Shown here piece after piece: positions 6,379 through 25,026 of a stretch of DNA of 64,000 nt. The DNA is from Sphingomonas jejuensis (GTDB lineage: Bacteria; Pseudomonadota; Alphaproteobacteria; Sphingomonadales; Sphingomonadaceae). Positions within the stretch are counted from its first letter, which is position 1, and each line of letters starts with the position of its first letter. The notes below the pieces were generated by a model. The model was given only the letters and a program-made list of their open reading frames with translations. It ran no database searches and was not told where the DNA came from. The stretch is taken from assembly GCF_011927695.1 (NCBI RefSeq), contig NZ_JAATJE010000001.1:496001-560000 (forward strand). The letters run 5' to 3'. The translations under genes and the position numbers were made by a program.

Positions 6379-7569
6379 ATGGCCATCACCCCGCTCATGC
6401 CCGTCTACCCGCGCTGCGGGGTGCGACCGGTGCGCGGCGAGGGCTGCCACCTGATCGACGAAAGCGGCGCGCGGCTCCTCGATTTCGCGAGCGGCATCGC
6501 GGTCAACCTCCTGGGTCACAGCCACCCGGGCCTCATCGAGGCGATCCAGCGGCAGGCCGCGACGCTGATGCACGTGTCCAACCTTTATGGCAGCCCGCAG
6601 GGCGAGGCGCTGGCGCAGCGGCTGGTCGACAACACCTTTGCCGACACGGTGTTCTTCACCAACTCGGGCGCCGAGGCGGTGGAGTGCGCGATCAAGACAG
6701 CGCGTCGCTTCCACCATGCCAACGGCAATCCGGAGCGGCACACGCTCATCACCTTCAAGAACGCCTTTCATGGCCGCACGATCGGCACGATCAGCGCGAC
6801 CGATCAGGAAAAGCTCAGGAGCGGGTTCGATCCGCTGCTGGGAGGCTTCACCGTCGTCGCTTTTGACGATCTCGCCGCAGCCGAGGCGGCAGTGGACGAG
6901 AACACGGCGGGTTTCCTGGTGGAGCCGATCCAGGGCGAGGGCGGTATCCGCCCGGCGTCGCGCGAGTTCCTGCAGGGCCTGCGCCGGATCTCGGATGACA
7001 AGGGGCTGCTGCTCGTCCTCGACGAGGTGCAGTGCGGCTACGGCCGGACCGGCAAGCTGTTCGCGCACGAGCTCTACGGCGTCACCCCCGATATCATGGC
7101 GGTGGCGAAGGGCATTGGCGGCGGCTTCCCGCTCGGCGCCTGCCTTGCGACCGAGCATGCCGCCAGGGGAATGGTGATCGGAACGCACGGGTCCACCTAC
7201 GGCGGCAATCCGCTGGCGATGGCTGCGGGCGAGGCGGTGCTGGACGCAGTGCTTGCCGACGGCTTCCTGGAGAATGTCACGCGCATGGGCGAGCGGCTTC
7301 GCGGCGCCTTGGAGCAGATGATCCCCAACCATGATCACCTGTTCGAAGGCGTGCGCGGCACCGGCCTGATGCTCGGCCTGAAGATGAAGTCGGACAGCCG
7401 GCGCTTCGTCGCGCACCTGCGCGACGAGCATGGGCTGCTGACCGTCGCGGCGGGCGAGAATGTCGTCCGCATCCTGCCGCCGCTGGTGATCGGCGAGGAG
7501 CATGTCGCCGAATTCGTCGAAAAGCTGTCGGCGGCGGCCCGTGTCTATGTGCCGGCTGCCGACGAGTAG
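6379..7569 (+). CDS. argD: Acetylornithine/succinyldiaminopimelate aminotransferase
   Basis: This is a 396-residue PLP class-III aminotransferase that makes N-acetylornithine in arginine synthesis; many homologues also act in lysine synthesis. Visible marks are the family entry [16 protein letters not shown], the [15 protein letters not shown] loop, the [11 protein letters not shown] aspartate that binds the PLP nitrogen, and [13 protein letters not shown] with the Schiff-base lysine, followed by [13 protein letters not shown] 6379 has AAGGAG eight bases upstream; longer in-frame extensions are unlikely. It leads a run with GFA, argF and hslO. Confidence 0.95.
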
Positions 7570-7578
7570 GAGGACGCC

Positions 7579-7926
7579 ATGATCCAGGGAAGCTGTCACT
7601 GCGGCGCGGTCCGGTTCGAGGCGCCAACTCCCGACACGCTGACACGGTGCAACTGCACCTACTGCGACCGCGTCGGCGCATTATGGGGCTATTCGACGCC
7701 GGCCGATTTCACGCTGTTGAGCGACGAGGAGGCACTTCTCACCTACGCGCCCAACAGCACGCAGCATTACAGCTGCGCCACCTGCGGCATGGTGACGCAT
7801 CAGCTTTCGCAGGACTTCGAGGCGAACGACGGCTCGATGAAGGCCGGCTACAATGTCCGCATGGCACAGGATCTCGATCGCTCAACGATCAGGATCATCG
7901 ATCTCGACGGGCGGCATCAATGGTGA
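7579..7926 (+). CDS. GFA / CENP-V family protein
   Basis: This is a 115-residue zinc-binding protein of the glutathione-dependent formaldehyde-activating (GFA) fold. The cysteine pattern is family-typical: [11 protein letters not shown] near residue 5, [10 protein letters not shown] near 27 and CATCGM near 68. Members range from glutathione S-hydroxymethyl transferases to proteins of no known activity. AGGAGG lies just before the ATG. It sits between argD and argF and overlaps the argF start by 7 bp, so it should be translated with the arginine genes. Whether it takes part in arginine metabolism is not known. Confidence 0.85.
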
Positions 7927-8855
7927 CAGTGCGCCATTTCCGCGACCTGGCCGATGCCGGCTCCGCCGGCCTGCGCGCGATCCTGGACGAGGCGCATCGG
8001 CGCAAGGCTGCGCGCGCCGGCTGGCCGAAGGGCAGGGTGGACGCCGACGCACCGCTCGCCGGGCATGTTCTGGCGACGGTGTTCGAGAAAAGCTCGACCC
8101 GCACGCGCGTGTCGTTCGACATGGCGATGCGGCAGCTCGGCGGCTCGGCGCTGGTGCTGGACAGCGGATCGACGCAGCTTGGACGTGGCGAGACGATCGC
8201 CGATACCGCGCGCGTCCTCAGCCGTTTCGTGGATGGCATAACCCTCCGCACCGATGATCATGCCAAGCTGATCGAGTTCGCGGCGGAGGCAAGCGTGCCG
8301 GTCGTGAACGCGCTCACCGATCGGTCGCACCCCTGCCAGATCGTGGCGGACCTGCAGACGCTTGAGGAACATGGGCTGACGCTTCCCGGCAGCCGCTGGG
8401 CGTGGCTGGGCGACGGCAACAATGTGCTTCATTCGATCGTCGAGGCGGCGGGCCTGCTTGGCTTCCACGTCTCGGTGGGCGTGCCCGAAGGTTATGATCC
8501 GGACCGGGGCATTTGCGATGACGCACGGGCGCGCGGCGCCGGCATCACCATCCACCGCGATGCCGCAAGCGCTGTGGCCGGTGCCGACGTGATCGTCACC
8601 GACAGCTGGATCTCGATGGGCCAGGCGCATGCCGACGAGAAGCTGGCGGCGATGATGCCGTTCCAGGTGACGGACGCGCTTATGGAAAAGGCGGCCCGCA
8701 ATGCCCACTTCCTGCACTGCCTCCCCGCGCATCGCGGTGAGGAGGTGACGGCCAGCGTGATCGACGGTCCCCGTTCGCTCGTGTTCGACGAGGCGGAGAA
8801 CCGGTTGCACGCACAGAAGGCCGTTCTTCTCTGGTGCTTCGGGATGATCGGGTGA
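7920..8855 (+). CDS. argF: Ornithine carbamoyltransferase
   Basis: This 311-residue enzyme joins carbamoyl phosphate and ornithine into citrulline. The carbamoyl-phosphate loop SSTRTR (residues 58-63), the HPCQ motif, the ornithine-side DSWISMGQ and the catalytic [10 protein letters not shown] near the C-terminus are all present. The length is normal for OTC. The start [10 protein letters not shown] overlaps the end of the GFA gene by 7 bp, and hslO begins on a GTG overlapping the argF stop, so translation is chained from argD to queE. Confidence 0.95.
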
Positions 8856-9781
8856 CGAACGAGACAAAGCAGGTGGATGCTGCGCGCACGGACATGGACC
8901 GGAGCCTTGGTTTCGCCATTCCGGATCGCAACGCCCGCGGCCGGCTGGTGCGGCTGGGGCCGGCGCTGGACAAGGTGCTGGCGGCGCACGCCTATCCCCC
9001 CGTGCTGGAGCGCGTGCTGGCGGAGGCGCTGGTGCTGACCGCGCTGCTGGGCGCGACGCTGAAGGATGAAGGCGGCCAGATGACGATGCAGGCGCAGACC
9101 GGCGGCGGGGCTGTCGACCTGCTCGTCTGCGATTATCGCGGCGGCGAGGTGCGCGGTTATCTGAAGCATGATCCGGACAAGCTGGCCGAGCTGCCGGCCG
9201 ACCCGTCGCTGTTCGCGCTGTTCGGCTCCGGCTATCTTGCGATCACCTTCGACGGTGCTGCGGGGCAGCGTTATCAGGGGATCGTGCCCCTGGACGGTTC
9301 CTCGCTGGCCGAGGCCGCCGAAAGCTATTTCGAGCAGTCCGAGCAGATCCCCAGCCTGGTGCGGATCGCCGTTGGCCATCAGGACGGCGGATGCGTGGCG
9401 GGTGGCCTGCTGATGCAGCATCTGGCGGAAGGGGAGGAAGGGCGCGAGCGGCTTCACACCCGGCTCGATCATCCCGAATGGGGCCATGTCGAGACACTGG
9501 GATCGACGGTGAAGGCGGACGAGCTGCTCGACGGTGACCTGCCGCTGGAGACGATCGTATGGCGCTTGTTCCATGACGAGGGCGAGGTCAGGGTGCTGGG
9601 TGGCGCGGCGCTGACCAATGCCTGCCGCTGCGATCCTGAGCATGTCGCCGACGTGATCTCCCGCTTTCCCGAGGAAGAACGGCGTGACATGGCCGATGCT
9701 GACGGCATCATCCGCGTCGATTGCGCCTTTTGCGCCAGCGTGTGGCCGATTCCGCTGTCGTCGCTGGCGCCGGCGCAATGA
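8852..9781 (+). CDS. hslO: Hsp33 redox-regulated chaperone
   Basis: This is a 309-residue cytoplasmic holdase activated by oxidation. The C-terminal redox switch is intact: CRC near residue 263 and CAFC near 294 are the four zinc cysteines. The N-terminal domain carries [12 protein letters not shown] and the [10 protein letters not shown] segment. A GTG at 8852 overlapping the argF TGA was preferred as start; ATG 8894 ([10 protein letters not shown]) is the alternative. It overlaps queC by 4 bp. An oxidative-stress chaperone next to argF is a common alphaproteobacterial order. Confidence 0.93.
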
Positions 9782-10482
9782 GCGGGACGGCACCGTTCGC
9801 CGTCGTTCTCCTGTCGGGCGGCATGGACTCCATGACCGTCGCGGCGATGGCGAAGGAAGCGGGATTTCGGCTGCTGGCGCTGACCGTCGACTACAATCAG
9901 CGGCATCGTGTAGAGATCGCGGCGGCCGGTCGGATCGCGGCCAAGCTGGGGGCGGAAAGGCACATCGTCGTGCCGCTTGACCTGCGCGGCTTCGGCGGAT
10001 CGGCGCTCACCGCCGACATCGACGTGCCGAAGGACGGCGTGAAGGAAGGCGTCATCCCGCCCACCTATGTGCCCGCGCGCAACACGCTGTTCCTGTCGCT
10101 TGCGCTGGGCTGGGCGGAGGCGGCGGGTGCGCGCGACCTGTTCGTCGGCGTCCATGCGCTCGATTACAGCGGCTACCCCGATTGCCGGCCGGAGTTCCTG
10201 CGCGCGTTCGAGGCGCTGGCTGCCGTCGCCACCAAGGCCGGGGTGGAAGGGGAACGCTTCACCGTCCATGCCCCGCTGATCGACATGACGAAGGCCGATA
10301 TCGCGCGCGAGGCTGATCGGCTCGGGCTTGATGCCGGCATGAGCTGGTCCTGCTACGATCCCGCGCCGGCGCCGTCCGGCCAGGCGGTGCACTGCGGCCT
10401 CTGCGACGCCTGCCGCTTGCGTCACGGCGGCTTCGTCGCCGCCGGCCTGTCCGATCCGACGGTCTACGCAGCCCGGCCATGA
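9778..10482 (+). CDS. queC: 7-cyano-7-deazaguanine synthase
   Basis: This is a 234-residue ATP-dependent enzyme turning 7-carboxy-7-deazaguanine into preQ0 for queuosine. The PP-loop [10 protein letters not shown] is near residue 12. [11 protein letters not shown] follows, and the C-terminal zinc site SWSCYDP...[11 protein letters not shown] supplies the four cysteines. ATG 9778 overlaps the hslO stop (ATGA), and the stop overlaps queE in the same way. The pair queC-queE covers two successive precursor steps; queD and queF are not in the window. Confidence 0.95.
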
Positions 10483-11114
10483 GCTATGCCGTCAAGGAGA
10501 TGTTCCTGACGCTCCAGGGGGAAGGGCGGCAGGCGGGGCGGCGCGCAGTGTTCGTACGCATGGCAGGCTGCAACCTGTGGTCAGGCCGCGAGGAGGATCG
10601 CGCCACCGCACAGTGCCGGTTCTGCGACACCGACTTCGTGGGGCTGGACGGTGACGGCGGCGGACGGTTTCGCGATGCCGATGCGCTCGCCTCCGCCGCG
10701 CGCGCGCTGTGGGGCGATGCGTCCGGCGAACGTCCCTATGTGGTGGTGACGGGGGGTGAGCCGCTGTTGCAGCTGGATCCACCGCTGATCGACGCCTTTC
10801 ATGCAGCAGGGTTCGAGCTGGCGGTGGAAAGCAACGGCACGATCGCCGCGCCGCCCGGGATCGACTGGCTCTGCATCAGCCCCAAGGCCGGCACCGACGT
10901 GGTGCAGCGCGCGGGTGACGAGCTGAAGCTCGTCTGGCCGCAGCCCGGGATCGATCCGGCCGCGCTGGAGGCGTGGGATTTTTCCCATCACCTCGTTCAG
11001 CCGATGGACGGCGCCAATCGCCAGGCGGCGGAGGATGCCGCGGTGGCGCTGGTGATGGAGCGGCCGCGCTGGCGGCTCACGCTCCAGAACCACAAGGCAC
11101 TGGGACTGCGCTGA
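10479..11114 (+). CDS. queE: 7-carboxy-7-deazaguanine synthase
   Basis: This is a 211-residue radical SAM enzyme that contracts the 6-carboxy-tetrahydropterin ring to 7-carboxy-7-deazaguanine. It opens with the family entry [14 protein letters not shown]. The cluster-binding cysteines are in the long-spaced QueE pattern: MAGCNLWSG, then 14 residues later [18 protein letters not shown] is the SAM-binding GGE motif. It starts on ATGA overlapping queC. The stop is 6 bp from the convergent secreted-protein gene. Confidence 0.94.
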
Positions 11115-11120
11115 AGCGCC

Positions 11121-11780
11121 TCAGCGCGCCCGGCCGCCGCATTGGCGGCGCAGGCGATCGCGACGGTCAAAGCAGTCGGGGCCCAGCACGCGGGCGAACT
11201 GGACCTGCTGCACGCTCGCGGCGGGGAACTGCTGCTCGCCGCCGGGAAGCAGGCTGCGCCGCAGCTCAAGCAGTCGCTGCTGCGCCACGCGCCACAGCTC
11301 GCCGCGCGGGGCGAACAGCGCCTGCCGCCCGACCTGCGCGGCCGTGGCGCAGAAGGTCAGCTGCCCGCGCACGGTCGAGAAGCCGTTGTAGGTGCGATCG
11401 CCGAACTTGTCGAAGTTGGACTGGCCCTGGCGCCGGTCGATGCGCCGGAAATAGCCGAGCAGCGTCTGATAGGCGTCCGCCAGCTCCACCCGGTGATGGT
11501 TGATCAGGTGGTTGTACTGGTTGAGCGTCAACAGCGTGGGATCGAACTGGCACTGCAGCGCTGCCACGTTCAGGCCGGTGCGCATGTTCCAGAGCACGCC
11601 GGCGCGCAGTTCCTCCGGCGTGGCGCCGGGAAGCGAAAAGCCGATGTTCGGCTCGTCCCCGCGAGCGGCGGGCGAGGTCAGGTCAGGGGCCTTCCAGAAG
11701 AATTGCGCGGAAGCAGGTGTTGCGGCGGCGCACGCCGCCAAAGCGAAGGCGGCGATCCGCCCGAGCCAAGTCGAAGCCAT
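11121..11780 (-). CDS. Secreted protein of unknown function
   Basis: This is a 219-residue protein with a clear signal peptide (MASTWLGRIAAFALAACAAATPASAQ). The mature part is rich in aromatic residues and arginine (FFWKAPDL; GYFRRIDRR; TYNGFSTVRGQLTFCATAAQ) and has three cysteines after the signal peptide (in ALQCQF, LTFCATA and GPDCF), so a disulfide is possible. I do not recognise a named domain. The pattern resembles small periplasmic proteins seen across sphingomonads. ATG 11780 was chosen because it begins the signal peptide. It is monocistronic and convergent with queE. Confidence 0.6.
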   Translation of the reverse strand: MASTWLGRIAAFALAACAAATPASAQFFWKAPDLTSPAARGDEPNIGFSLPGATPEELRAGVLWNMRTGLNVAALQCQFDPTLLTLNQYNHLINHHRVELADAYQTLLGYFRRIDRRQGQSNFDKFGDRTYNGFSTVRGQLTFCATAAQVGRQALFAPRGELWRVAQQRLLELRRSLLPGGEQQFPAASVQQVQFARVLGPDCFDRRDRLRRQCGGRAR

Positions 11781-13972: not shown

Positions 13973-15466
13973 TCAGGCGGCGGCCCCGCAATAACTCGCG
14001 ACATAGGCGGCATGGTTCGGCATGCCGGCAACCGACTTCCTGACCGTCTCGCGCAATGTCGACAGCAGTCTGGCGAGCTCGTCATCGCTCAGCTTCTCGG
14101 CGATGGGATGGTGGCTGCGCGGCACGATGCCCTGACCCATCATCACCTGAACCCAGCTGTTCTCGCCGAACAGCTCCTCGTTGCGGCGGAACACGCGACC
14201 GGTTTCGCGGAACAGCTCGATTTTCTGGGTGAGCGTGTCGGGCACATCCATGTCCGCGCACTGCCGCCAGAAGGCGCTGTCACGCCGTTCTGTTGCCTTG
14301 TAGTGCAGGACGAGGAAGTCGCGGATCTGCACCATGTCGACCATCTGCTGGTCGTTGAACTCGGCGACGTCACGCGCGCTGATCCCGTCCGTAGGGAACA
14401 TGCGGATCAGGCGCAGGACCGCGCGCTGGATAAGGTGGATGCTGGTCGATTCCAGCGGCTCCATGAACCCGCCCGACAGGCCGATCGCCACGCAGTTGCG
14501 GTGCCATTGCCGCCGCCTCGCACCCGTGACGAAGCGGAGGCGGTTGGGCTCGGTCAGCGTAGGGCCTTCGATGTTGCCGAGCAGCCGTGCCAGCGCCGCC
14601 TCATGATCGAGATAGCGGGTGCAGTAGACGATCCCATTGCCCGTGCGATGCTGCAGCGGGATACGCCATTGCCAGCCCGCGTCATGCGCCATCGCACGGG
14701 TGTACGGCACCGGCGGTGCCAGGCTCTCGGTCTGCACCGCGATCGCCGCGTCGCATGGAAGATAATGGGTCCAATCGTCGAACCCGGCATGGAGCGCGCC
14801 GTCGATCAGCAGCGCGCGAAAGCCGGTGCAATCGATGAACAGGTCGCCATCGATCCGCCGGCCGCCATCGAGCATCAGCGCGGCAATGTCGCCGCTCTCG
14901 CCGTCAAGCTCGACGGCGGTGATGCGCCCTTCCACCCGCACCGTCCCGTCGCCTTCCGCCATGCGCCGCAGAAAACCGGCGTAGCGGGCGGAATCGAGCT
15001 GATAGGCGTAGTTGGCCTGGTCTCCCGGCAGATGGCCGAACCGACCTTCCAGGGCAGCGACAAGCTCCAGGCAATACTCGTCATAGGGCGCATCATGGCC
15101 GCGCTCGAGGCCGCTCAGCCAGAAATGCTGGAAGCCGGCAGACCAATGGTCGCGGCCGGTCAGGCCGAAGGAATGGAAGTAGCTGTGGCCCAGCTGCTTC
15201 CAGTCGTCGAACAGGATGCCGAGTTTGAAGGTGGCCTGCGTCTCGCGCATGAACTCGGCCTCGTTGATGCCGAGCAGCCGGTTGAACGCGATCAAGGGCG
15301 GGATCGTGGATTCGCCGACACCGACGGTGCCGATCGCTTCCGATTCCACCAGCGTGACCTGGACGGTGCGGCCCATGGTGCGCGCGATCGCCGCGGCCGT
15401 CATCCAGCCGGCAGTGCCGCCGCCGGCTACGACGACCCGGCAGATCCGCGGAGCATCCACAGTCAT
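13973..15466 (-). CDS. Flavin-dependent tryptophan-halogenase family protein (1)
   Basis: This is a 497-residue FAD enzyme. GGGTAGW (16-22) binds FAD. K81, in ATFKLG, aligns with the halogenase lysine thought to carry the chloramine or hypohalous acid. WQWRIP (265-270) is the family WxWxIP motif, so the protein looks catalytically complete. The free-standing halogenases known from this group act on indole-type substrates in vitro, but the natural substrate of those encoded beside TonB receptors is not established. It is last of a tightly overlapping minus-strand run: it starts 4 bp inside the cupin gene. The flavin reductase is not in the window. Confidence 0.85.
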   Translation of the reverse strand: MTVDAPRICRVVVAGGGTAGWMTAAAIARTMGRTVQVTLVESEAIGTVGVGESTIPPLIAFNRLLGINEAEFMRETQATFKLGILFDDWKQLGHSYFHSFGLTGRDHWSAGFQHFWLSGLERGHDAPYDEYCLELVAALEGRFGHLPGDQANYAYQLDSARYAGFLRRMAEGDGTVRVEGRITAVELDGESGDIAALMLDGGRRIDGDLFIDCTGFRALLIDGALHAGFDDWTHYLPCDAAIAVQTESLAPPVPYTRAMAHDAGWQWRIPLQHRTGNGIVYCTRYLDHEAALARLLGNIEGPTLTEPNRLRFVTGARRRQWHRNCVAIGLSGGFMEPLESTSIHLIQRAVLRLIRMFPTDGISARDVAEFNDQQMVDMVQIRDFLVLHYKATERRDSAFWRQCADMDVPDTLTQKIELFRETGRVFRRNEELFGENSWVQVMMGQGIVPRSHHPIAEKLSDDELARLLSTLRETVRKSVAGMPNHAAYVASYCGAAA

Positions 15467-16500
15467 TGGCTGAGCGCCCGCAGCAGATAGGCGCGCAGCC
15501 GCCCGGCGCTCTCCGGCGTCAGCGGATCGAGCACGCTGCGCGCGCCTTCGGGGATATGGGCTGTCACGGCCGTCCCGTCACCGAAGATGTAGTGGTCGAA
15601 CATATCGCGCCAGTGCCGCTTCTCGTCTTCGGGCAGGTCGCGGATCGCGAGCAGGGCGTGGTTCAGCGCATCCTGCGGGTTCCCCATCCAGCGCGGCGTG
15701 TCCTTCCACCAATAGTTCACCAGCACGTTGAACGCGGCCAGCCCCTCCACATGGTGCCACCACATGGACGGGATGAAGATCGCGTCGCCCGCGTTCAGGT
15801 CGGCGACCTGCGCGTGCTCCAGCGCCTCGCGGAACCGCGGATGTCGGGCGTGGTCGGGATGGTGCAGGTCGACCATGCTGACGGCACGTCCCGCCGGGGT
15901 GTGGTCGATCGGTCCCAGGTAGAGGTTGCGGAACTGGTCGCGCGGGAACAGCGTGAACCGCCGCCGCCCGACCGCGACGCAGGCCAGGTTCCGCGGCAGG
16001 TCGTTGTGCGCGGCAATGCGCGTCCGGGTGCCGATCCAGATGCTGGCGATCGGTTGGCGCGCACCCAGGTCGACATGGTTGGCGGCATGCAGGCCGTCGA
16101 AGAACTGGTGCACGTCGACCGACGCGAGATAGATGGGCCGCGCATCGGCCGCGCCGTCCTCCCGCGCGATCTGCGCGAAGATGTCGGCGAGCTTCGCGCG
16201 CGCCATGCGGAAGTTCATCTGCATGGCGTCGTCGTAGAACAGCCTGCCGCCGCTCTCCGCCGTGCCGACGGATACGGTGAACGGCACGTCGCGCGCATGT
16301 TCGACCAGATAGGCCCGCGCGTCCGCGGCGGACCGCCGCCCCGCCTCGACCAGAGGCCAGTCGGACACCAGGCCGCGCACCACGAACGGCTTCGTTGCGC
16401 TGGCGAGCAGCCGGTCGAGCGCAGCCTGGTCGGCAACCGCAACCTCCGGCACGGCGGCGAGGCCGGCGAAGATGCCGGGGTCGGCGTCAGCCATCGGCAT
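15463..16500 (-). CDS. Cupin-like (JmjC-type) Fe(II)/2-oxoglutarate oxygenase-like protein
   Basis: This is a 345-residue protein of the cupin_8/JmjC fold. The entry segment KPFVVRGLVSDWP is typical. An iron facial triad is plausible: AHNDLPRN gives His and Asp, and IFIPSMWWHHVEG gives the distal His. It could therefore hydroxylate a protein or small molecule, though its substrate is unknown. It overlaps SapC by 14 bp (or 8 bp if the second ATG is used) and halogenase 1 by 4 bp. In sphingomonads and xanthomonads this protein travels with SapC, halogenases and TonB receptors. Confidence 0.8.
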   Translation of the reverse strand: MPMADADPGIFAGLAAVPEVAVADQAALDRLLASATKPFVVRGLVSDWPLVEAGRRSAADARAYLVEHARDVPFTVSVGTAESGGRLFYDDAMQMNFRMARAKLADIFAQIAREDGAADARPIYLASVDVHQFFDGLHAANHVDLGARQPIASIWIGTRTRIAAHNDLPRNLACVAVGRRRFTLFPRDQFRNLYLGPIDHTPAGRAVSMVDLHHPDHARHPRFREALEHAQVADLNAGDAIFIPSMWWHHVEGLAAFNVLVNYWWKDTPRWMGNPQDALNHALLAIRDLPEDEKRHWRDMFDHYIFGDGTAVTAHIPEGARSVLDPLTPESAGRLRAYLLRALSQ

Positions 16501-17206
16501 TGCGCTGGTTCTTCCGCGCCACCAGCTCCGCGATGCGGCCGAGCGAGGCGACCGCCATGAAGATCGGCATCAGGTGGCCTTCGCCATGAAGCGCGCCGAG
16601 CGCATCCGGCCCCAGTGCGGCCAGCTTCTGCTCGTCGATGGCATGGTAGCCGACCAGACGGTTGATGGACCCGTCGTCCAACTCGATCTCGAGCGTGAAG
16701 GGTTCGAGCAGGTTGTGCTGCCGAAGCGCGGCGAAGAAGGCGGCGGACTCGCGATAGCCCGCGTCGAGCTCGCCCAGAAGCTCGGCCACCTCCTCCAGAT
16801 AGGGCGTCGGGCGGCCGTCCCCGTCGAACACCCGAATTCCCTCGCCATCGCCGCTGATCCGCGGGCTGGCGGTGTCGACATGCACCTGCCGCACGTCGCT
16901 GTCGGGGGCGGCATGGCCGATCAGGAAGGGCTGGATGGCCAACGCCAGCGGCCGGTACCGCGCGTCCCACCGATCCCCTTTAAGAAACAGGTTCTCGCCA
17001 TTCTCGAACCCGAACAGCGCGAGCGCCACGAAGTCGGTCCGCTCCTGATTCATGCGGAAGAGGATCGGGTACTCGTCCTGCACACGCCGGAACTCGGCGG
17101 GAACCACCAGGCTGGTCATCACCGCATCGCCAAGCGCCGCCCCGCGCTCGGCGCGCACGCGAAGGTCCCGGTGCCGGTCGGAGCCGAGCAGCTGATGAGC
17201 GGTCAT
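16487..17206 (-). CDS. SapC family protein
   Basis: This is a 239-residue protein of the SapC family, recognisable from [34 protein letters not shown] and [15 protein letters not shown]. It has no signal peptide or membrane helix. The family name derives from a Campylobacter S-layer secretion gene, but in Gram-negative carbohydrate loci the role is unknown. The start [10 protein letters not shown] overlaps the halogenase 2 stop by 4 bp; a weaker downstream start is [10 protein letters not shown]. It lies between halogenase 2 and the cupin-like gene. Confidence 0.85.
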
Positions 17207-18798
17207 GTGAGCTGTGTCTCCAGGGACGCGGGCGCCGTCGCGGCCCTCAGCGCGTCCAGATAGGCGCGGTTGGTGGGAAGGCTCGCCGCCAGGCCGCGCC
17301 CGCGCTCCGCCACCTGCCTGAGCAGCCGCCCGGCCGCGCCCTGACCTTCGGGCCGGACCAGCGGGGGAGGGGGCGGGGGAAAGCCCATGCCGTAGAGCAC
17401 ATATTGGTAGCTCGCCGCCGGGAACAGCTCCTCGGCAAGCGGCAGGTCGCGGCGCGACGGCGCGCGATGCCGCCACAGCCGCATCATGGCAGCGAGGCGA
17501 GGCGGCACGCTGTCGGCCGTGCGATGCGCGAGCCAATAGGGTTCGCTCCGTTCGCTCAGAACATAATGCAGCTTCAGGAACTCGACGATGCGGTCCCATC
17601 GTTCCCGAAACAACGCGTTGAAGCGGTCCGCCTGGATCGCCATGGTCTCTCGGTCGGGTGGGAAATCATCGAGCAGGGCATCCAGCGACAGCTCGATCAG
17701 GACGATGGCCGACGCCTCCAGCGGCTCCAGAAAGCCCGCCGACAGGCCCAACGCCAGGCAGTTGCGCTCCCAGAAGCGCGCGCGGTGGCCGGAGCGGAAC
17801 GCAAGCCGGCGAAAGGCGGCGGGGCTGATCGTGGATCCCGGAACCGCTTGGGCGATGTAAGCCGCCAAGACCTCCGCTGCCTCGTCGTCATCCATAAACG
17901 CAGAGGCATAGACGCAACCGATCCCCCGCCGGGTGGGAAGGCCGATGTCCCAGATCCAGCCCGCCCGATGCGCCGTCGCGTCGGTCTGCGAGGCGATCAT
18001 GCTGTCGGCCGCAACCGGAACCTGGGCGGCAAGCGCGCGGTCGTTCGGCAGGATGTCCCTCCGATCCACGAACGGCACGTCCAGCGCGCCGCCGATCAGC
18101 ATCGCGGCATGGCCGGTGCAGTCGATGAACAGGTCGCCGGACACCGCGCCCGCGTCCCGCAGCACGACGCCCGCGATGTCGCCGTCGGGTGTCCGCTCGA
18201 CCGCCAGCACATGGTCGCGCAGGTGGCGAACACCCAGCGCCTGCGCCCGCCGCGTCAGCAGCGCTGCCAGCTTGCCCGCGTCGAGGTGGTAACCATAATT
18301 CAGCGCGCCGGAATAATCGGGCATCGCGCGCTGCCGCGGTGCCAGATGGTCGCGGCAGATGCGCGCCTGCGTGGTGGCGTGATCGGCAAAGGGGCCGTCT
18401 GCTCGCGCGGCCCAGTCCTGCACCACCGCCTGCGGATCGGCCTCGGGCGGAGGCGTGAAGGGGTGAAGGTAGCTGTCGCCCGCCGCGCCCGTGCGCCAGC
18501 CGATGAACCGCGATCCCTGCTTGAAGGACGCATCGCAGGCGAGGAGGAAGTCGCTTTCTGCGATGCCGATCCGTTCCAGCGTACGGCGCATGGTGGGCCA
18601 GGTGCCCTCGCCGACGCCGATCGTGGGGATGTCGGGGGACTCGATGATGGTGACGGTCAGCGGATCGGCGAGGGCCTTGTCGATCCGCGCAGCGATGACG
18701 CAGGCCGCTAGCCAGCCGGCCGTGCCGCCGCCGACGATCACGACGCGGCGAACGGGCCGGCTCGGCTGCGGAGGGGCTGTCCGATCCTCGTGCATCAA
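17203..18798 (-). CDS. Flavin-dependent tryptophan-halogenase family protein (2)
   Basis: This is a 531-residue paralogue of the halogenase at 13973-15466. It keeps GGGTAGW (23-29) for FAD, K93 in SFKQG at the catalytic lysine position, and W281-I-W283 in the WxWxIG form of the halogenase signature. The variant residue after the second Trp and the extra loops suggest a different substrate from halogenase 1. A Pro-rich stretch (six consecutive Pro) lies in the last 60 residues. It is first of the four-gene run after the TonB receptor, 69 bp past the receptor stop, with a terminator between them. Confidence 0.85.
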
Positions 18799-18823
18799 CC
18801 GTGGGTCTGCTCTCGCCCGGCGG

Positions 18824-18852
18824 AAAAAGCCACCCCGCCGCTGCGGGGTGGC
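18824..18852 (-). terminator. Terminator between the TonB receptor and the halogenase run
   Basis: Perfect 10-bp arms GCCACCCCGC (18829-18838) and GCGGGGTGGC (18843-18852) are followed on the minus strand by five Ts (A-run 18824-18828). It should cap most receptor transcripts, with read-through giving lower levels of the four downstream genes. Confidence 0.8.
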
Positions 18853-18867
18853 TCCTGCCGGATCGGA

Positions 18868-21800
18868 TCAGAAGTTGAAGCGAACACCCGCGGAATAGCG
18901 CGCGAAGCCCGGCTGCGAGAAGGTAACGAAGTTGTCCGATCGACGATGACCCCGCCGGCTGGCGTTGGTCAGGTTGATCGCCTCCACGAAGCCCGTCAGC
19001 CCCGGCACGAACTCGTAGCTCGCGCTGGCGTCGACCTGCCCGTAATCCTCGACATAGGTCGGGTTCGGATTGCCACCGGCATAGAACTCTGCGCGCCAGT
19101 TGTAGGCGACGCGCGCCTGCAGCCCACCACGGTCATAGTAGAGCACCGCATTGGCGCTGTCGCTCAGGCCCGCCAGCGCAAACTGGCCGACATTGGGGTC
19201 CAGCGCATTATCGAAGTCGGTGTCACCGCGCACCACCGTGTAGTTCAGGATCGTACCAAAGCCCGTGTCCCAGAAGCTGTGCTGGATCGCGAACTCGAAG
19301 CCGTCGATCGTCGCTGTCTGATCGGAGTTGAAGGGCGTGCCGACCCGGAAGTCGACAAGGCCGTCTTCCGCCAGGCCGAAGATCCGACCCGTGTAGCGAC
19401 CGTTCTGGTCCAGCACCGGCTGGCCCTGAGCGTCGCGGGCGACTTCCACGCCATTGGTGAAGTTGCGCAGGATATAGTCGCGGATCAGGCCCACGTCCGT
19501 GGTTCCGCCCAGCGCCGCCTGCGCGGCCCTGAATCGGGGCCCGTCAGCGGGATTGCGCAGGTCGAACGCACTCCGCTCGACCTCCTGCGAGTTGATGAAG
19601 TTGCTCACCCGCTTCCGGAAATAGCCGGCCGAGACGTAGCTGGTATCGTCGTAATACCACTCTGCCGAAAGATCGATGTTCTTCGACAGGAAGGGAACCA
19701 GGTTCGGGTTGCCCTGCTGCCCGCCGCCACCGGCGATGCCGAACTGCCGGCTGAGGGTCAGGCCGCCCTGCAGGCTGCCGTAATCGGCCCGCGTGATGGT
19801 GTGGCTGTAGGACGCGCGAAGCTTCAGGCCGTCCAGCGGCTCCACGTCCACGTCGATCGCCGGCAGCCAGTTGTCGTAGCTGCCCTTGTTCGGCAGGAAG
19901 TCCGTCGAGGAGCCGTAGATGATGTTGAACTCGCCCACCGCGACCCATGCGGTGCCGGTCGGGATCGGCGTCAGCGAGGTCGATTCTACGTTCGTCTGGT
20001 CATAGCGGACGCCCGCGATGATGTGAGCGTCGCGACCGAGCACGTCGAATTCCATGTTCGCCTGGATGAATGGCGAGATGGTCTTTTCCGTGATCCGGCG
20101 GTCCGTATCGAAGGTCGCAAGGCAGCCGTCGCCGAGCGGGGTTCCGCCGAGCGGCCGGCTGCAGATGCCGAAGCGATCCTCGAGCAGGTTGACCAGCCGC
20201 GCGATGTCGAAGCTGTAGAAGGCCGGGATGATGCCGTCGCCGGACCCGGACACGCCCTTGAACTTGTCGGGCAGGGTGACGAGCTCGAAGATGTCGTCCG
20301 GCAGATCAGCCGGGGTGCCGAGGCCGCCCCAGGTGTCGTTCTGGATGAAGCCATAGGCCGAACGCACGCGGTTCTCGACATAGGAGAAGCCGACATCGAT
20401 CGAGTCGAGGAAATCCCCGTCATGATCGTAACGGCCCGACAGCTGGACCTGGTTGATCTCGTCCTTGAAGTAAGCGTTGCGGAACGAGTTGCCGGTGGCG
20501 TTGATCCGCGATGCGTCAAGCGCGTCGATGCCCGGCTGCATGATGTAGGAGATGATCGGCAGCTCCTTGGTGAAGTCCACCGTCTGGGACTGCACGCCGA
20601 AGACCGCGGTGCCCACCGACATGCTGCTGCCGAAGTTGTTGGACGGCTTCGATTCTGCCGTGGAATGGTGCGCGTCGAGCACGACGGTGACGCCGCCCGG
20701 CGCCTCCCAAGTCAGGTTGCCGCCCAGCGACTTGTTTTCGCTGACGTTGGCGGTCAGCGCGCCCGAATAGGACAGGTCCTTACCCGGCCCGAACCGCTCC
20801 GTGTAGAACACTGGACCGGCCACGGGGCCGTCCGTCCACTGGGTGGTGGTGTCGCCGAAGTTGAACCAAATGCCCACGCTGTTGTCGCGCGCTTCCACCT
20901 TGTTGCGTGAATAGGTGAAATCCACGGTCGCGGTCAGGGCGTCGGCGGGGCGGAATTGCAGAACCGCCTGCCCGTTGATGCGCTCACGCTCGAAATTGTT
21001 GATGTTGTAGGCCGCGCTCTGCGGGATCTCGTACACATCGGTCGGGCCGGGGCGGTTGATGACGTTCGGCCCTTCCGGCCCGAGCGTGCCCCAGTCGTTC
21101 TCCGTGCCAAGGAAGGCGTTGCCGAAGCCGACGGAGCCGGTGTTCGTGCGGGCGTTGCGCTTCTGGTAGATGCCGGTCACCAGCACGCCGAACTGGTCGT
21201 CGCTGCCGAAGGTCGAGCTGATGATGCCCGACACTTCCGGGGTGATGCTCTGATCGTCGTCCTGCGACGTGTCGAGCACACCGCGCACCGCGATCGACCC
21301 GCGCAGGCCGGGACGATCCAGCGGACGGGGCGTGCGGATGTTGATGGTGGAACCGATGCCGCCCGACGGCACGGCGGCACGGCCGGTCTTGTAGACCTCC
21401 ACCGCGGCGATGCCTTCGGAAGCGAGATTGGCGAAGTCGAACGAGCGTGATGCGGGCGGGCTGGCGCCGTCACCCAGCGTCGACGTCGGCATCTGGCGGC
21501 CGTTGAGCGTTACCAGGTTATATTCCGGACCGAAGCCGCGGACGGTGACGGTGGAGCCTTCGCCGTTCGATCGATCGATCGACACACCGGTGATGCGCTG
21601 GAGCGACTCGGCCAGGTTGGTGTCGGGGAACTTGCCGATGTCCTCGGCCGAGATCGCGTCGACGACGCCCTGGCCATTGCGCTTCAGATCAACGGCCGCC
21701 TGAAGCGAGGCGCGGATGCCGGTGATGACGATCTCCTCGCCGCTATCCTCCTCGATGCCGGGGGTGGGCTGGATCTCGGACGGGCCGGTGTTGCCGAGCG

Positions 21801-21900
21801 TCGATGCCGCGTCCTGCGCGTGCGCGGCGGCCGGCATCAGCGCCAGCATGGATGCGCCAACAGCGAAACGAGACAGCGAGCGAGCGTTGAAGCTCCGCAT
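18868..21900 (-). CDS. TonB-dependent receptor
   Basis: This is a 1010-residue outer-membrane importer. The signal peptide ends at AHAQ. A TonB-box-like region (GEEIVITGIRAS) near residue 55 is followed by the plug domain (LAESLQRITGVSIDR, VTVRGFGPEYN, VTLNGRQMP) and a beta-barrel that ends in the classical terminal Phe (YSAGVRFNF). This is the long form used by sphingomonads and xanthomonads for carbohydrates and similar substrates. GGAGG precedes the ATG, and a TGAACGTTCA operator lies 49 bp upstream, so control by the LacI protein at 23962 is likely. The ligand cannot be read from the sequence. Confidence 0.93.
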   Translation of the reverse strand: MRSFNARSLSRFAVGASMLALMPAAAHAQDAASTLGNTGPSEIQPTPGIEEDSGEEIVITGIRASLQAAVDLKRNGQGVVDAISAEDIGKFPDTNLAESLQRITGVSIDRSNGEGSTVTVRGFGPEYNLVTLNGRQMPTSTLGDGASPPASRSFDFANLASEGIAAVEVYKTGRAAVPSGGIGSTINIRTPRPLDRPGLRGSIAVRGVLDTSQDDDQSITPEVSGIISSTFGSDDQFGVLVTGIYQKRNARTNTGSVGFGNAFLGTENDWGTLGPEGPNVINRPGPTDVYEIPQSAAYNINNFERERINGQAVLQFRPADALTATVDFTYSRNKVEARDNSVGIWFNFGDTTTQWTDGPVAGPVFYTERFGPGKDLSYSGALTANVSENKSLGGNLTWEAPGGVTVVLDAHHSTAESKPSNNFGSSMSVGTAVFGVQSQTVDFTKELPIISYIMQPGIDALDASRINATGNSFRNAYFKDEINQVQLSGRYDHDGDFLDSIDVGFSYVENRVRSAYGFIQNDTWGGLGTPADLPDDIFELVTLPDKFKGVSGSGDGIIPAFYSFDIARLVNLLEDRFGICSRPLGGTPLGDGCLATFDTDRRITEKTISPFIQANMEFDVLGRDAHIIAGVRYDQTNVESTSLTPIPTGTAWVAVGEFNIIYGSSTDFLPNKGSYDNWLPAIDVDVEPLDGLKLRASYSHTITRADYGSLQGGLTLSRQFGIAGGGGQQGNPNLVPFLSKNIDLSAEWYYDDTSYVSAGYFRKRVSNFINSQEVERSAFDLRNPADGPRFRAAQAALGGTTDVGLIRDYILRNFTNGVEVARDAQGQPVLDQNGRYTGRIFGLAEDGLVDFRVGTPFNSDQTATIDGFEFAIQHSFWDTGFGTILNYTVVRGDTDFDNALDPNVGQFALAGLSDSANAVLYYDRGGLQARVAYNWRAEFYAGGNPNPTYVEDYGQVDASASYEFVPGLTGFVEAINLTNASRRGHRRSDNFVTFSQPGFARYSAGVRFNF

Positions 21901-22074: not shown

Positions 22075-23850
22075 TCAGGGATAGTGGAGCAGCGTCTGGC
22101 GGATCGCGCCCGGCCGCGCGGCGTCGCCCGCCTCGTTCACCAGATGCGCGATCGTGCCCTTGCCCCCGCCCAGCGAGATGATGGTGACATGGTCGATCCG
22201 GACGCCCGGCCGTCGCGGCACCTCCACCGCGCTTTCCAGCACGATCGACGGATCGGCCGTGAAGTTGGCATAGATGCCCATCGCGGTGGCCTTATGGTCC
22301 TGCACATGCGGCGCGACCTTGTACGCCGCCCAGCCGCGGGTGTTGCCGGCCATATAGGCCGCCTGGCTTGGTGGATCGTAGGGTAGTTCGTTCTGGTAGA
22401 AGAGGGTTCGCCCTCGCTCTCCGTTCCAGAGCGTCTGGTATTTCTGGTAATGCTCCACGAACAACCCGGTGAGCGTCACGTCGTTGCCGTTGACGACCAG
22501 GCCCTGGTCGCCCGTGCTCTCGTCCCAGCCGACATGCACCCGCCCGCCCGCGCGGTCGCCATGGTCCGCGCGCCAGATCCACAGGTGGTCGCCCAGCACA
22601 TGGTGGCTGTTGATCTCCAGCGAGGTTGTCGCATTGCCAACGGTCGCGCCGCCCACGCGGAAGTAGAGATCGGACAGGCTGACCGGGTTGGCGCGGAAGT
22701 CGCCGGATGCGCCACGCGGGCCGATCTCCAGCAGCACGGGCGACAACGCCGGCCCGGCATCGAACATCACCCCCGCCACCACGACGCCCGCGACATCGTC
22801 AACCGTCATTGCCTTGGTGCCGCCGTTCGCCAGCAGCGTGGCGAGGCCCAGGCCCAGCACCACCGTACCGGCCTCCATGACACGGATCGGCGCGTCCAGA
22901 GGATAAACGCCAGGCGTCAGCAGCAGGTGCTGCCCCGCGCTCAGGGCGAGGTTGATCTCGGCCGCCGACATGCCCGGCTGTGCGATCAGGAAGCGATCGA
23001 GCGGGATCGTGCGGCCGAGACCCGGGCCAGCGCCCCAACTCGGTCCCCGCGCATCGCGGCGTACGGCCGGCACGAACACTCCCCAGCGCCCGTCGGCATC
23101 GATGTGGAGAAAGGGCTTTTCGCGGATCAGCGGCACGGCGGGCAGGGTGGTGAAGGGCGGCTCCGGAAAGCTGGTCGGCGGCGCGCCCTCGACGCCTGCG
23201 AACACCATGTTCCAGTTGGATCCCTCCCATGCGCCGATCGCGCTGGTGCGGGTCAGCCACTGCTGTTGGGATCCGGAGCGCACCGTCCCGTCGATGCGGC
23301 TGTCCGCGATCAGCCCGCCGCTGGACCAGCCGCCATCGTCCAGCGCCAGGTCGCCATGGAGGTGCATGCGGCGATAGGGTGCGGCCTGCGACACGGCCCA
23401 GCGGTCGGCGCCGTCCGGCGGACGCACGGCCATGTTCTCCACGCCACGCCAGAAATTGACCAGCGCCATGCCGTTGTTCCAGTCCGCCTCGCAGTGGACA
23501 TGGCCGTCGATCACGACCTCGCCCGGCACCCGCCCGAGCCCCGCGACCTGGGTGAAGAAGCCGACGTTGATGTCGAGCGGATAGCGTCCGGGCTTCGCCA
23601 GCACGGCATAGCGCCGGTCGGTGAAGTGCGCGCGTTCCTGCTCCCGGAAGATCGCGTCCAGCCGCGCCTGAAGCGCGGCCGGTGGCGTGTCGGGGTCCAG
23701 CACGACCACATAGGGTCCGAGGTCCGGATCGGCTTCGGTCGTGGCGGCGCGTGGTCGCGGCGTCGTTGCGCACCCCGTCACCGCGGCGGCACCAAGTCCC
23801 GCGATCACCGCGCGACGGCCAACCCCGCGCCCGCCGTCAAGCTTCGTCAT
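22075..23850 (-). CDS. Exported right-handed beta-helix protein, putative carbohydrate-active
   Basis: This is a 591-residue protein. The N-terminus has an RR pair followed by AVIAGLGAAAVTGC, which looks like a Tat or Sec lipoprotein signal with lipobox VTGC. The body is full of short beta-helix turns (KPGRYPLDINVGFF; TPGVYPLDAPIRV; EINSHHVLGDHLWIW) and Trp/His-rich patches (WNNGMALVNFWRG; QDHKATAMGIYANF). It resembles actinobacterial secreted proteins that databases label 'adenylyl cyclase' or 'coagulation factor 5/8-like'; I see no cyclase residues and do not accept that label. A glycan hydrolase or lyase is the best guess from the fold and the LacI/TonB neighbours. No catalytic residues could be assigned. 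Confidence 0.55.
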   Translation of the reverse strand: MTKLDGGRGVGRRAVIAGLGAAAVTGCATTPRPRAATTEADPDLGPYVVVLDPDTPPAALQARLDAIFREQERAHFTDRRYAVLAKPGRYPLDINVGFFTQVAGLGRVPGEVVIDGHVHCEADWNNGMALVNFWRGVENMAVRPPDGADRWAVSQAAPYRRMHLHGDLALDDGGWSSGGLIADSRIDGTVRSGSQQQWLTRTSAIGAWEGSNWNMVFAGVEGAPPTSFPEPPFTTLPAVPLIREKPFLHIDADGRWGVFVPAVRRDARGPSWGAGPGLGRTIPLDRFLIAQPGMSAAEINLALSAGQHLLLTPGVYPLDAPIRVMEAGTVVLGLGLATLLANGGTKAMTVDDVAGVVVAGVMFDAGPALSPVLLEIGPRGASGDFRANPVSLSDLYFRVGGATVGNATTSLEINSHHVLGDHLWIWRADHGDRAGGRVHVGWDESTGDQGLVVNGNDVTLTGLFVEHYQKYQTLWNGERGRTLFYQNELPYDPPSQAAYMAGNTRGWAAYKVAPHVQDHKATAMGIYANFTADPSIVLESAVEVPRRPGVRIDHVTIISLGGGKGTIAHLVNEAGDAARPGAIRQTLLHYP

Positions 23851-23961: not shown

Positions 23962-25026
23962 ATGTCGCCGATGCGCCGCCAGACCGTGACCATCAAACAT
24001 GTCGCAGCCGAAGCCGGCGTGTCGCTGCAGACCGTGTCCCGGGTGATCAACAAGGAGCCGCACGTCCGCCCCGCGGTGCTGGAGCGGGTGGAGGCGGCGG
24101 TCGCCAAGCTCGGCTATGTGCCCAGCCTTGCCGCCCGGCGCATGGGCGGATCACGCTCCTACCTCATCCTCGCGCTCAACGATCGGGATCGCACGATCGA
24201 GGGGTGGCAGTCCGACGGCGGCACCGACTGGGTCGACCAGATGCTGCTGGGCGGCATGCTCAAATGCGCCGAGCACGGCTATCGCATGATCTTTGAGCTG
24301 GTGGACACGCATGCCGCGCATGTGGAGCGGGAGATCAGCGCCGCCATCTCCTCGCTTCATCCGGACGGCATCATCCTCACTCCGCCGCACGGCGACAATC
24401 CCGTCATCACTGACCTGCTGACCCGGCTGCGCGTGCCCTTCGCCCGGATCGGATCGGCCGGGGAGGGGGCGGGCTTCTCGATCGCGATGGACGAGGCCGC
24501 GGCCGCGGCGGCGGCGACGGACCATCTCGTCCAACTCGGCCACAGCCGCATCGGCTTCGTGACCGGCAGCGACGAGTATGCGCTGTCCGTAACAAGGTTG
24601 GAGGGGTGGCGCCGCGCGATGGCGGCGGCCGGGCTTGCCGCGGGCGATGATCTCGTCCGCCACGGCGACTTCACCTTCCGGTCGGGCGCGGCTGCGGCGG
24701 AAACGCTGGTGAGCGGGCCGCAGCCCGTCACCGCCATTGTGGCCAGCAACGACCAGATGGCGCTCGCCGCGCTGCACGTGGCGCAGGACCGCGGGCTCGC
24801 CGTGCCCGGCGACCTGTCGATCATCAGCTTCGACGACACCCCGATTACGCGCTTCAGCGTCCCGCCATTGACCGCCATCGCACAGCCGATCGCGGCCATG
24901 GCGTCGCGCGCGGCCGAGCTGCTGATCGAGGCGCGCGGCCAGCCGGCGGAGACGGCGGAGGCGAGCGTTCTGCCCTTTCGCCTCGTGGCACGCGCCTCGA
25001 CCGGCCCGGTACGCGCCGACGGCTAG
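23962..25026 (+). CDS. LacI-family transcriptional regulator
   Basis: This is a 354-residue repressor. The N-terminal HTH reads TIKHVAAEAGVSLQTVSRVI (about residues 9-28), followed by the hinge helix SLAARRMG. The periplasmic-binding-type sugar domain has QLGHSRIGFVTG, IVASNDQMALAAL and LSIISFDDTPI. GGGGAG precedes ATG 23962. It is divergent from the beta-helix gene across the TGAACGTTCA site and is the obvious candidate for binding it. The inducer is likely a sugar or oligosaccharide released by, or imported with, the locus products. Its stop overlaps the convergent GNAT gene by 4 bp. Confidence 0.92.
   Translation: MSPMRRQTVTIKHVAAEAGVSLQTVSRVINKEPHVRPAVLERVEAAVAKLGYVPSLAARRMGGSRSYLILALNDRDRTIEGWQSDGGTDWVDQMLLGGMLKCAEHGYRMIFELVDTHAAHVEREISAAISSLHPDGIILTPPHGDNPVITDLLTRLRVPFARIGSAGEGAGFSIAMDEAAAAAAATDHLVQLGHSRIGFVTGSDEYALSVTRLEGWRRAMAAAGLAAGDDLVRHGDFTFRSGAAAAETLVSGPQPVTAIVASNDQMALAALHVAQDRGLAVPGDLSIISFDDTPITRFSVPPLTAIAQPIAAMASRAAELLIEARGQPAETAEASVLPFRLVARASTGPVRADG

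Follow-up and report, generated by a model that had tools for sequence, protein, structure and literature searches.

What is the function of two putative flavin-dependent halogenases encoded beside a nutrient receptor? The question is raised by a gene run in a 64,000-nucleotide (nt) stretch of the Sphingomonas jejuensis genome (contig NZ_JAATJE010000001.1, positions 496,001 to 560,000), which was analysed at its full length and is referred to here as the window. There, a TonB-dependent receptor gene is followed by the genes for halogenase a (FDHa), SapC, a Cupin_8/JmjC oxygenase (Cup8) and halogenase b (FDHb), all on the minus strand between positions 13973 and 21900. An earlier reading, made from the sequence alone (the sequence-only reading), had suggested that these enzymes modify either the imported ligand or a cell-surface peptide. 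We found that the run is real, widespread and strongly non-random. With about even confidence, we interpret it as a receptor-maturation operon, the enzymes of which would modify their cognate receptor before export. Its elements are as follows.

18868 to 21900, minus strand: TonB-dependent receptor of family TIGR01782 (TonB-Xanth-Caul; NCBIfam, 594 bits against a cut-off of 310; Pfam Plug and barrel), the proposed substrate
18823 to 18854, minus strand: terminator-like hairpin with an 11-base-pair stem and a T-run, between the receptor gene and FDHa
17203 to 18795, minus strand: FDHa, PF04820, WIWDIG branch, K93; an optional member of the module
16487 to 17206, minus strand: SapC, PF07277 (E 2.9e-63; 213.8 bits against a cut-off of 28.9)
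15463 to 16500, minus strand: Cup8, PF13621 (E 9.2e-66), with an FIH-like HxD...H metal site
13973 to 15466, minus strand: FDHb, PF04820 (E 8.9e-183), WQWRIP branch, K81; a near-constant member of the module

The four enzyme and SapC genes overlap one another, as the sequence-only reading had described. ATGA overlaps join FDHa to SapC and Cup8 to FDHb, SapC and Cup8 share about 14 nt, and the start of FDHa is likelier to be the ATG at 18795 than the TTG at 18798. The receptor gene itself does not overlap FDHa; a gap of 70 to 75 nt, holding the hairpin and T-run, lies between them.

To what extent are such halogenases tied to such receptors? Of the six TIGR01782 receptors encoded in the S. jejuensis genome, five adjoin a halogenase; the genome's nine PF04820 proteins all lie within 10 kilobases (kb) of a receptor of this family. 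Across 11 sphingomonad genomes, 74 of 89 halogenases were located within 5 kb of a TIGR01782 receptor and 81 of 89 within 10 kb, versus a mean of 2.7 and a maximum of 15 for the 5-kb distance in 2000 circular shifts. In ten other genomes the 5-kb count was 36 of 40 (shift mean, 2.0), so that the linkage amounts to 18 to 27 times chance over the two genome sets. Since these genomes were chosen for carrying halogenases or SapC, the counts speak to linkage in genomes that have the genes and not to how common the genes are. About half of the TIGR01782 receptors have a halogenase (45/88 and 26/51 in the two sets).

A co-occurrence analysis with receptor subfamilies, which the sequence-only reading had called for, was strongly positive in these counts and in the phylogenies as well. 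We aligned 44 receptors with and 44 without a halogenase and estimated the receptor and halogenase trees with FastTree. On the receptor tree the halogenase label changed 5 times, versus about 30 times when shuffled, and it was carried by five clades, indicating that linkage to a halogenase is stably inherited within receptor clades. When the halogenase tree was labelled by the clade of the adjacent receptor, 8 changes were needed (minimum, 4; mean of shuffled labels, 33). Enzyme lineages are thus specific to receptor clades, and in the xylan-type clade a locus has up to four enzymes, one of them degenerate. This joint inheritance makes the receptor itself, and not the imported sugar, the most likely substrate of the enzymes. 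Literature searches combining TonB receptors with halogenases or SapC returned no report of this linkage, although subscription papers and preprints lay mostly outside the search and a prior description is possible; the papers examined on TonB receptors, sugar loci and halogenase genomics do not mention it either.

The gene run itself is equally conserved. Scanning of genome contigs with SapC yielded 54 independently fetched loci, and nearly all retain the order receptor-FDHa-SapC-Cup8-FDHb, which indicated that the run is more than a chance arrangement. It recurs in about 50 sphingomonad genomes, in a Duganella (L095, full gene set), in a Maricaulis (L093, all except FDHa) and in proteobacteria of other classes, where several SapC loci carry the module and some are complete (L179, L188, L194, L185, L190). 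FDHa is missing in about 10 of the 54 loci, and FDHb in only one (L064) among the loci long enough to judge. Across all these groups the order persists at receptor identities down to 43%. This persistence in distant genomes, together with the linkage far above chance, argues against the view that the genes are uncoupled in function and hitch-hike in sugar-utilisation islands, the tryptophans (Trp) of the receptor loops serving sugar binding only. Such loop residues are indeed typical carbohydrate contacts, and the Trp columns described below are confounded with clade; even so, we regard this explanation as very improbable.

The L064 locus of an Allosphingosinicella (positions 6952 to 11732) has the receptor, SapC and Cup8 and no halogenase nearby, and is a natural knock-out of the halogenases. 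Of three loop Trps listed below, its receptor keeps W524 and W345 and not W270.

What do the linked receptors import? In the S. jejuensis genome, one lies beside GH13 and GH31 genes (L041, starch type), another beside GH67, GH43 and GH9 (L039, xylan type), a third beside GH27 and a SASA esterase (L038, hemicellulose type) and a fourth beside GH3, peptidase M13 and DUF6445 (L037). Among 59 loci of the module type found in the window, 45 have GH3, 26 have GH16 and 55 have a LacI regulator, and because of these neighbours the ligand of the window receptor is probably a beta-glucan-type oligosaccharide. Carbohydrate loci with TonB receptors in Caulobacter (MalA, NagA) and Xanthomonas (CUT loci) share the TIGR01782-type receptor, the LacI regulator and glycosidases; unlike for the window locus, halogenases are not mentioned in the papers that describe them (PMC1790865, PMC11658791).

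These contexts led us to reject modification of the imported ligand, the first of the two earlier suggestions, as unlikely. Within one genome, one enzyme family accompanies receptors for chemically different glycans (starch, xylan, hemicellulose and probably beta-glucan), which share no aromatic ring and are not compounds on which a flavin halogenase would be expected to work, and the common factor is therefore the receptor. Moreover, the FDH enzymes start almost directly with the FAD (flavin adenine dinucleotide) motif, and no signal peptide was evident when their N termini were read; they are thus presumably cytoplasmic, and each receptor clade has enzymes of its own. The second suggestion, a cell-surface peptide, came closer; the evidence points to the outer-membrane receptor itself.

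The same observations bear on two further candidates for the substrate. The enzymes might halogenate or hydroxylate a small aromatic compound (an indole or a phenolic, plant- or algae-derived) that enters with the glycan or signals its presence, the receptor sharing regulation only. LacI-regulated sugar loci are common here, and relatives brominate free indole and its derivatives in vitro (PMC7336383). However, the linked receptors serve unlike glycans, each clade has its own enzyme lineage with up to four enzymes per locus, and the loci listed showed no genes by which an aromatic product would be made, transported or exported. A diffusible product would not call for a separate set of enzymes at each receptor, and we consider this explanation unlikely. 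Alternatively, the target could be a different protein of the uptake machinery (TonB, a lipoprotein or a secreted glycosidase), given that any abundant partner of the receptor would produce the same linkage. Yet the receptor is the only gene common to all five linked clades, whereas glycosidases and regulators vary, which makes a different target protein quite improbable.

Both halogenases have intact catalytic motifs. Both gave full-length matches to PF04820 (608.7 and 397.4 bits against a cut-off of 21) and keep the FAD motif GGGTAG, and the catalytic lysines assigned by the sequence-only reading were confirmed as K93 in FDHa (FKQG) and K81 in FDHb (FKLG). Its distinction between the WxWxI motifs also held: FDHa carries WIWDIG (position 281) where the other form, WQWRIP in FDHb (position 265), ends in IP, and the two enzymes belong to different branches of the family. 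The active-site Glu of an EPLE motif was found in both. A regular expression for the third halogenase motif (Fx.Px.Sx.G), the published spacing of which is uncertain, matched neither. Catalytic Lys and Glu are kept in nearly all receptor-linked halogenases apart from one degenerate group.

FDHa is homologous over its whole length to the halogenase-family chains 9ltb, 9lu2 and 2pyx (2e-191, 1.4e-115 and 4.9e-148, respectively), with 9ltb and 2pyx as its closest solved chains. The solved chains nearest to FDHb are 6y1w (Xcc4156-type), 9luq and 6frl (BrvH); Xcc4156 and BrvH are close homologues (phmmer, 1.8e-197 and 1.7e-138) that share its FAD motif, catalytic Lys and WxWxIP. As the sequence-only reading had stated, relatives act on indoles in vitro; Xcc4156 and BrvH are indole-brominating enzymes for which the natural substrate is not known (PMC7336383), and FDHb differs from them in sitting in a receptor operon. 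In the structural study of Xcc4156 the active site was open and peptides were put forward as potential substrates, and neither TonB receptors nor SapC/JmjC partners are mentioned in it (PMC7336383).

Would the chemistry on the receptor be halogenation? We tentatively propose, as a possibility and no firmer than that, that a system widespread among proteobacteria installs bromo- or chloro-Trp in extracellular loops of sugar-importing TonB receptors and that halogenases, JmjC protein and SapC form a kit tuned to each receptor clade. There is a precedent for Trp halogenation in a ribosomal peptide in the lantibiotic enzyme MibH, the structure of which (5uao) is a distant homologue of the window halogenases; MibH differs in belonging to a natural-product cluster with no receptor, and it is about 26% identical to Xcc4156 (PMC7336383). 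Alternatively, the receptor could be the substrate of Trp hydroxylation, oxidation or cross-linking, a reading that overlaps with our own. Bromide is scarce where many of the hosts live, and a JmjC hydroxylase is encoded in the same run. QhpG, the Trp-dihydroxylating flavoprotein of quinohemoprotein amine dehydrogenase, resembles FAD halogenases in structure and carries out its dihydroxylation of a peptidyl Trp in the cytoplasm, ahead of export (PMC7876137). The QhpG model (NCBIfam NF049967) gave weak scores of 33.4 and 37.3 bits for our enzymes, far below the equivalog cut-off of 240, and QhpG is therefore a works-like comparison for cytoplasmic protein-Trp modification only. On the other side, the halogenase signature of catalytic Lys, Glu and WxWxI is complete in both enzymes, and the solved proteins related to FDHb brominate their substrates (PMC7336383). 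We give hydroxylation or a related oxidation a modest probability.

If the receptor is the substrate, as we favour, which residue would be modified? The AF2 (AlphaFold2) prediction for the receptor (pLDDT 77) agrees with solved structures of TonB receptors and places three Trps at long loops opposite the short turns, on the side taken as extracellular.

20329 to 20331, minus strand: TGG codon of W524 (QNDTWGGLG), at the start of the extracellular-side loop 522-598 (DSSP on the model); candidate target of FDHb
20866 to 20868, minus strand: codon of W345 (SVGIWFNFG), a loop Trp in nearly all module receptors; the other candidate site
21091 to 21093, minus strand: codon of W270 (ENDWGTLG), a second D-W-G loop motif, less conserved

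Among receptors of the module type and their kin, the Trp-Gly at W524 was present in 19 of 19 FDHb-linked receptors versus 1 of 14 others. FDHb-linked receptors contain 12.8 Trp (versus 9.3) and 2.2 Trp-Gly (versus 0.7) per protein, kinship being ignored in both comparisons. At similar divergence, linked clades have 1 to 6 invariant Trps and unlinked clades none or one (p about 0.03, ten clades), and the linked clades show loop motifs of their own: LGWGG in the maltodextrin type, [DNT]WG in the module type and NWG..SE.WGG in the xylan type. We infer from this pattern that the probable target of FDHb is an aromatic residue destined for an extracellular loop, with Trp524 as the leading candidate.

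A number of observations count against the receptor as substrate or against this site. We know of no modified receptor, and 11 of 129 halogenases (about 9%) have no TIGR01782 receptor within 10 kb. Trps in loops are also ordinary sugar-binding residues. Within the module family the D375 and A793 columns track FDHb as well as W524 does, the phylogenetic test of W524 has only two independent contrasts, and the L064 receptor retains W524 after the loss of both halogenases; W524 is for these reasons a candidate site only. Receptors with FDHa alone lack the W-G site, and in the xylan-type clade the number of halogenases does not correlate with that of Trps (rho 0.27, p 0.31).

Two assignments were tried and rejected. 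One enzyme per Trp in the xylan-type clade was dropped on this lack of correlation; Trp columns followed the enzyme orthogroups only marginally more closely than other residues did. As a target of FDHa, only W345 among the Trps differed visibly (W in 46/46 receptors with FDHa versus 8/11 without), and it cannot be assigned to FDHa because receptors that have FDHb but no FDHa retain it too.

How might the receptor be kept in excess over enzymes that act on it catalytically? In an energy-based search, 32 of 53 homologous loci had a hairpin with a T-run directly after the receptor gene, versus 1 of 53 shuffled sequences, and the stems differ in sequence among loci; a strict search for perfect-stem terminators found it in only 9 of 59 loci. 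Partial termination at this hairpin would yield far more receptor than enzyme, a ratio that would suit enzymes whose substrate is the receptor.

The remaining two proteins would also stay in the cytoplasm and take part in modifying the receptor polypeptide with the two flavin enzymes before its export. Cup8 resembles JmjC hydroxylases of the FIH/JMJD5 type: its HxD...H region aligns with FIH (E 2e-18), although the alignment is limited to the core at 163-270. Its AHND and WWHH motifs align with the His/Asp/His iron site of FIH and are conserved in 54 homologues. SapC gave a confident model (pLDDT 94) for which Foldseek and VIA-align reported no solved match, which does not by itself prove a new fold; the protein may hold or present the unfolded receptor. 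Of 249 genomes sampled from the phylum, 92 encode SapC, and about 8 of 20 SapC loci from genomes outside the class are solitary.

If our interpretation is correct, the natural-substrate question for the many genes named "tryptophan halogenase", which lack an identified substrate and are screened as biocatalysts away from their genomic setting, would reduce to one proteomics experiment. A role would be found for SapC and for this JmjC group, and post-translational modification would enter nutrient uptake, where it has hardly been considered. Receptor loops would also offer targets and a recognition motif for protein-level halogenation.

Several additional observations were made on these gene families. 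Beside active halogenases, the xylan-type loci encode a degenerate paralogue with no catalytic Lys and, in many cases, no FAD or WxWxI motif; it might serve in recognition as a non-catalytic subunit.

L039, 12036 to 13454 (C1:1609059-1610363 in the S. jejuensis genome): degenerate halogenase paralogue; also in L119, L100, L165, L154, L133, L109 and L155

A solitary second SapC subfamily (L043, 8784 to 9578; C1:1260864-1261523 in the S. jejuensis genome) lies in a housekeeping neighbourhood with no receptor or halogenase, an arrangement shared by about eight of the 20 SapC loci from other genomes. DUF6445 (PF20043) proteins are encoded directly 3' of the halogenase in some receptor loci (L037, 11766 to 12434; L179, 11402 to 12106) and are a candidate further member of the kit. 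The phage family phrog_2928 (tryptophan halogenase) matches both window enzymes (E 1e-85 to 1e-92), indicating that phages carry relatives of FDHa and FDHb. Two other genes lie upstream of the receptor in the window.

22075 to 23850, minus strand: 591-amino-acid protein between the receptor and the LacI regulator; no Pfam or NCBIfam match; a homologue lies beside GH16/GH3 in L058, which gives it a glycan context
24025 to 25026, plus strand: LacI-family regulator of the sugar-responsive type

The 591-amino-acid protein recurs in 10 of the 59 module loci and, at a guess from the look of its sequence, is possibly a glycan-active beta-helix.

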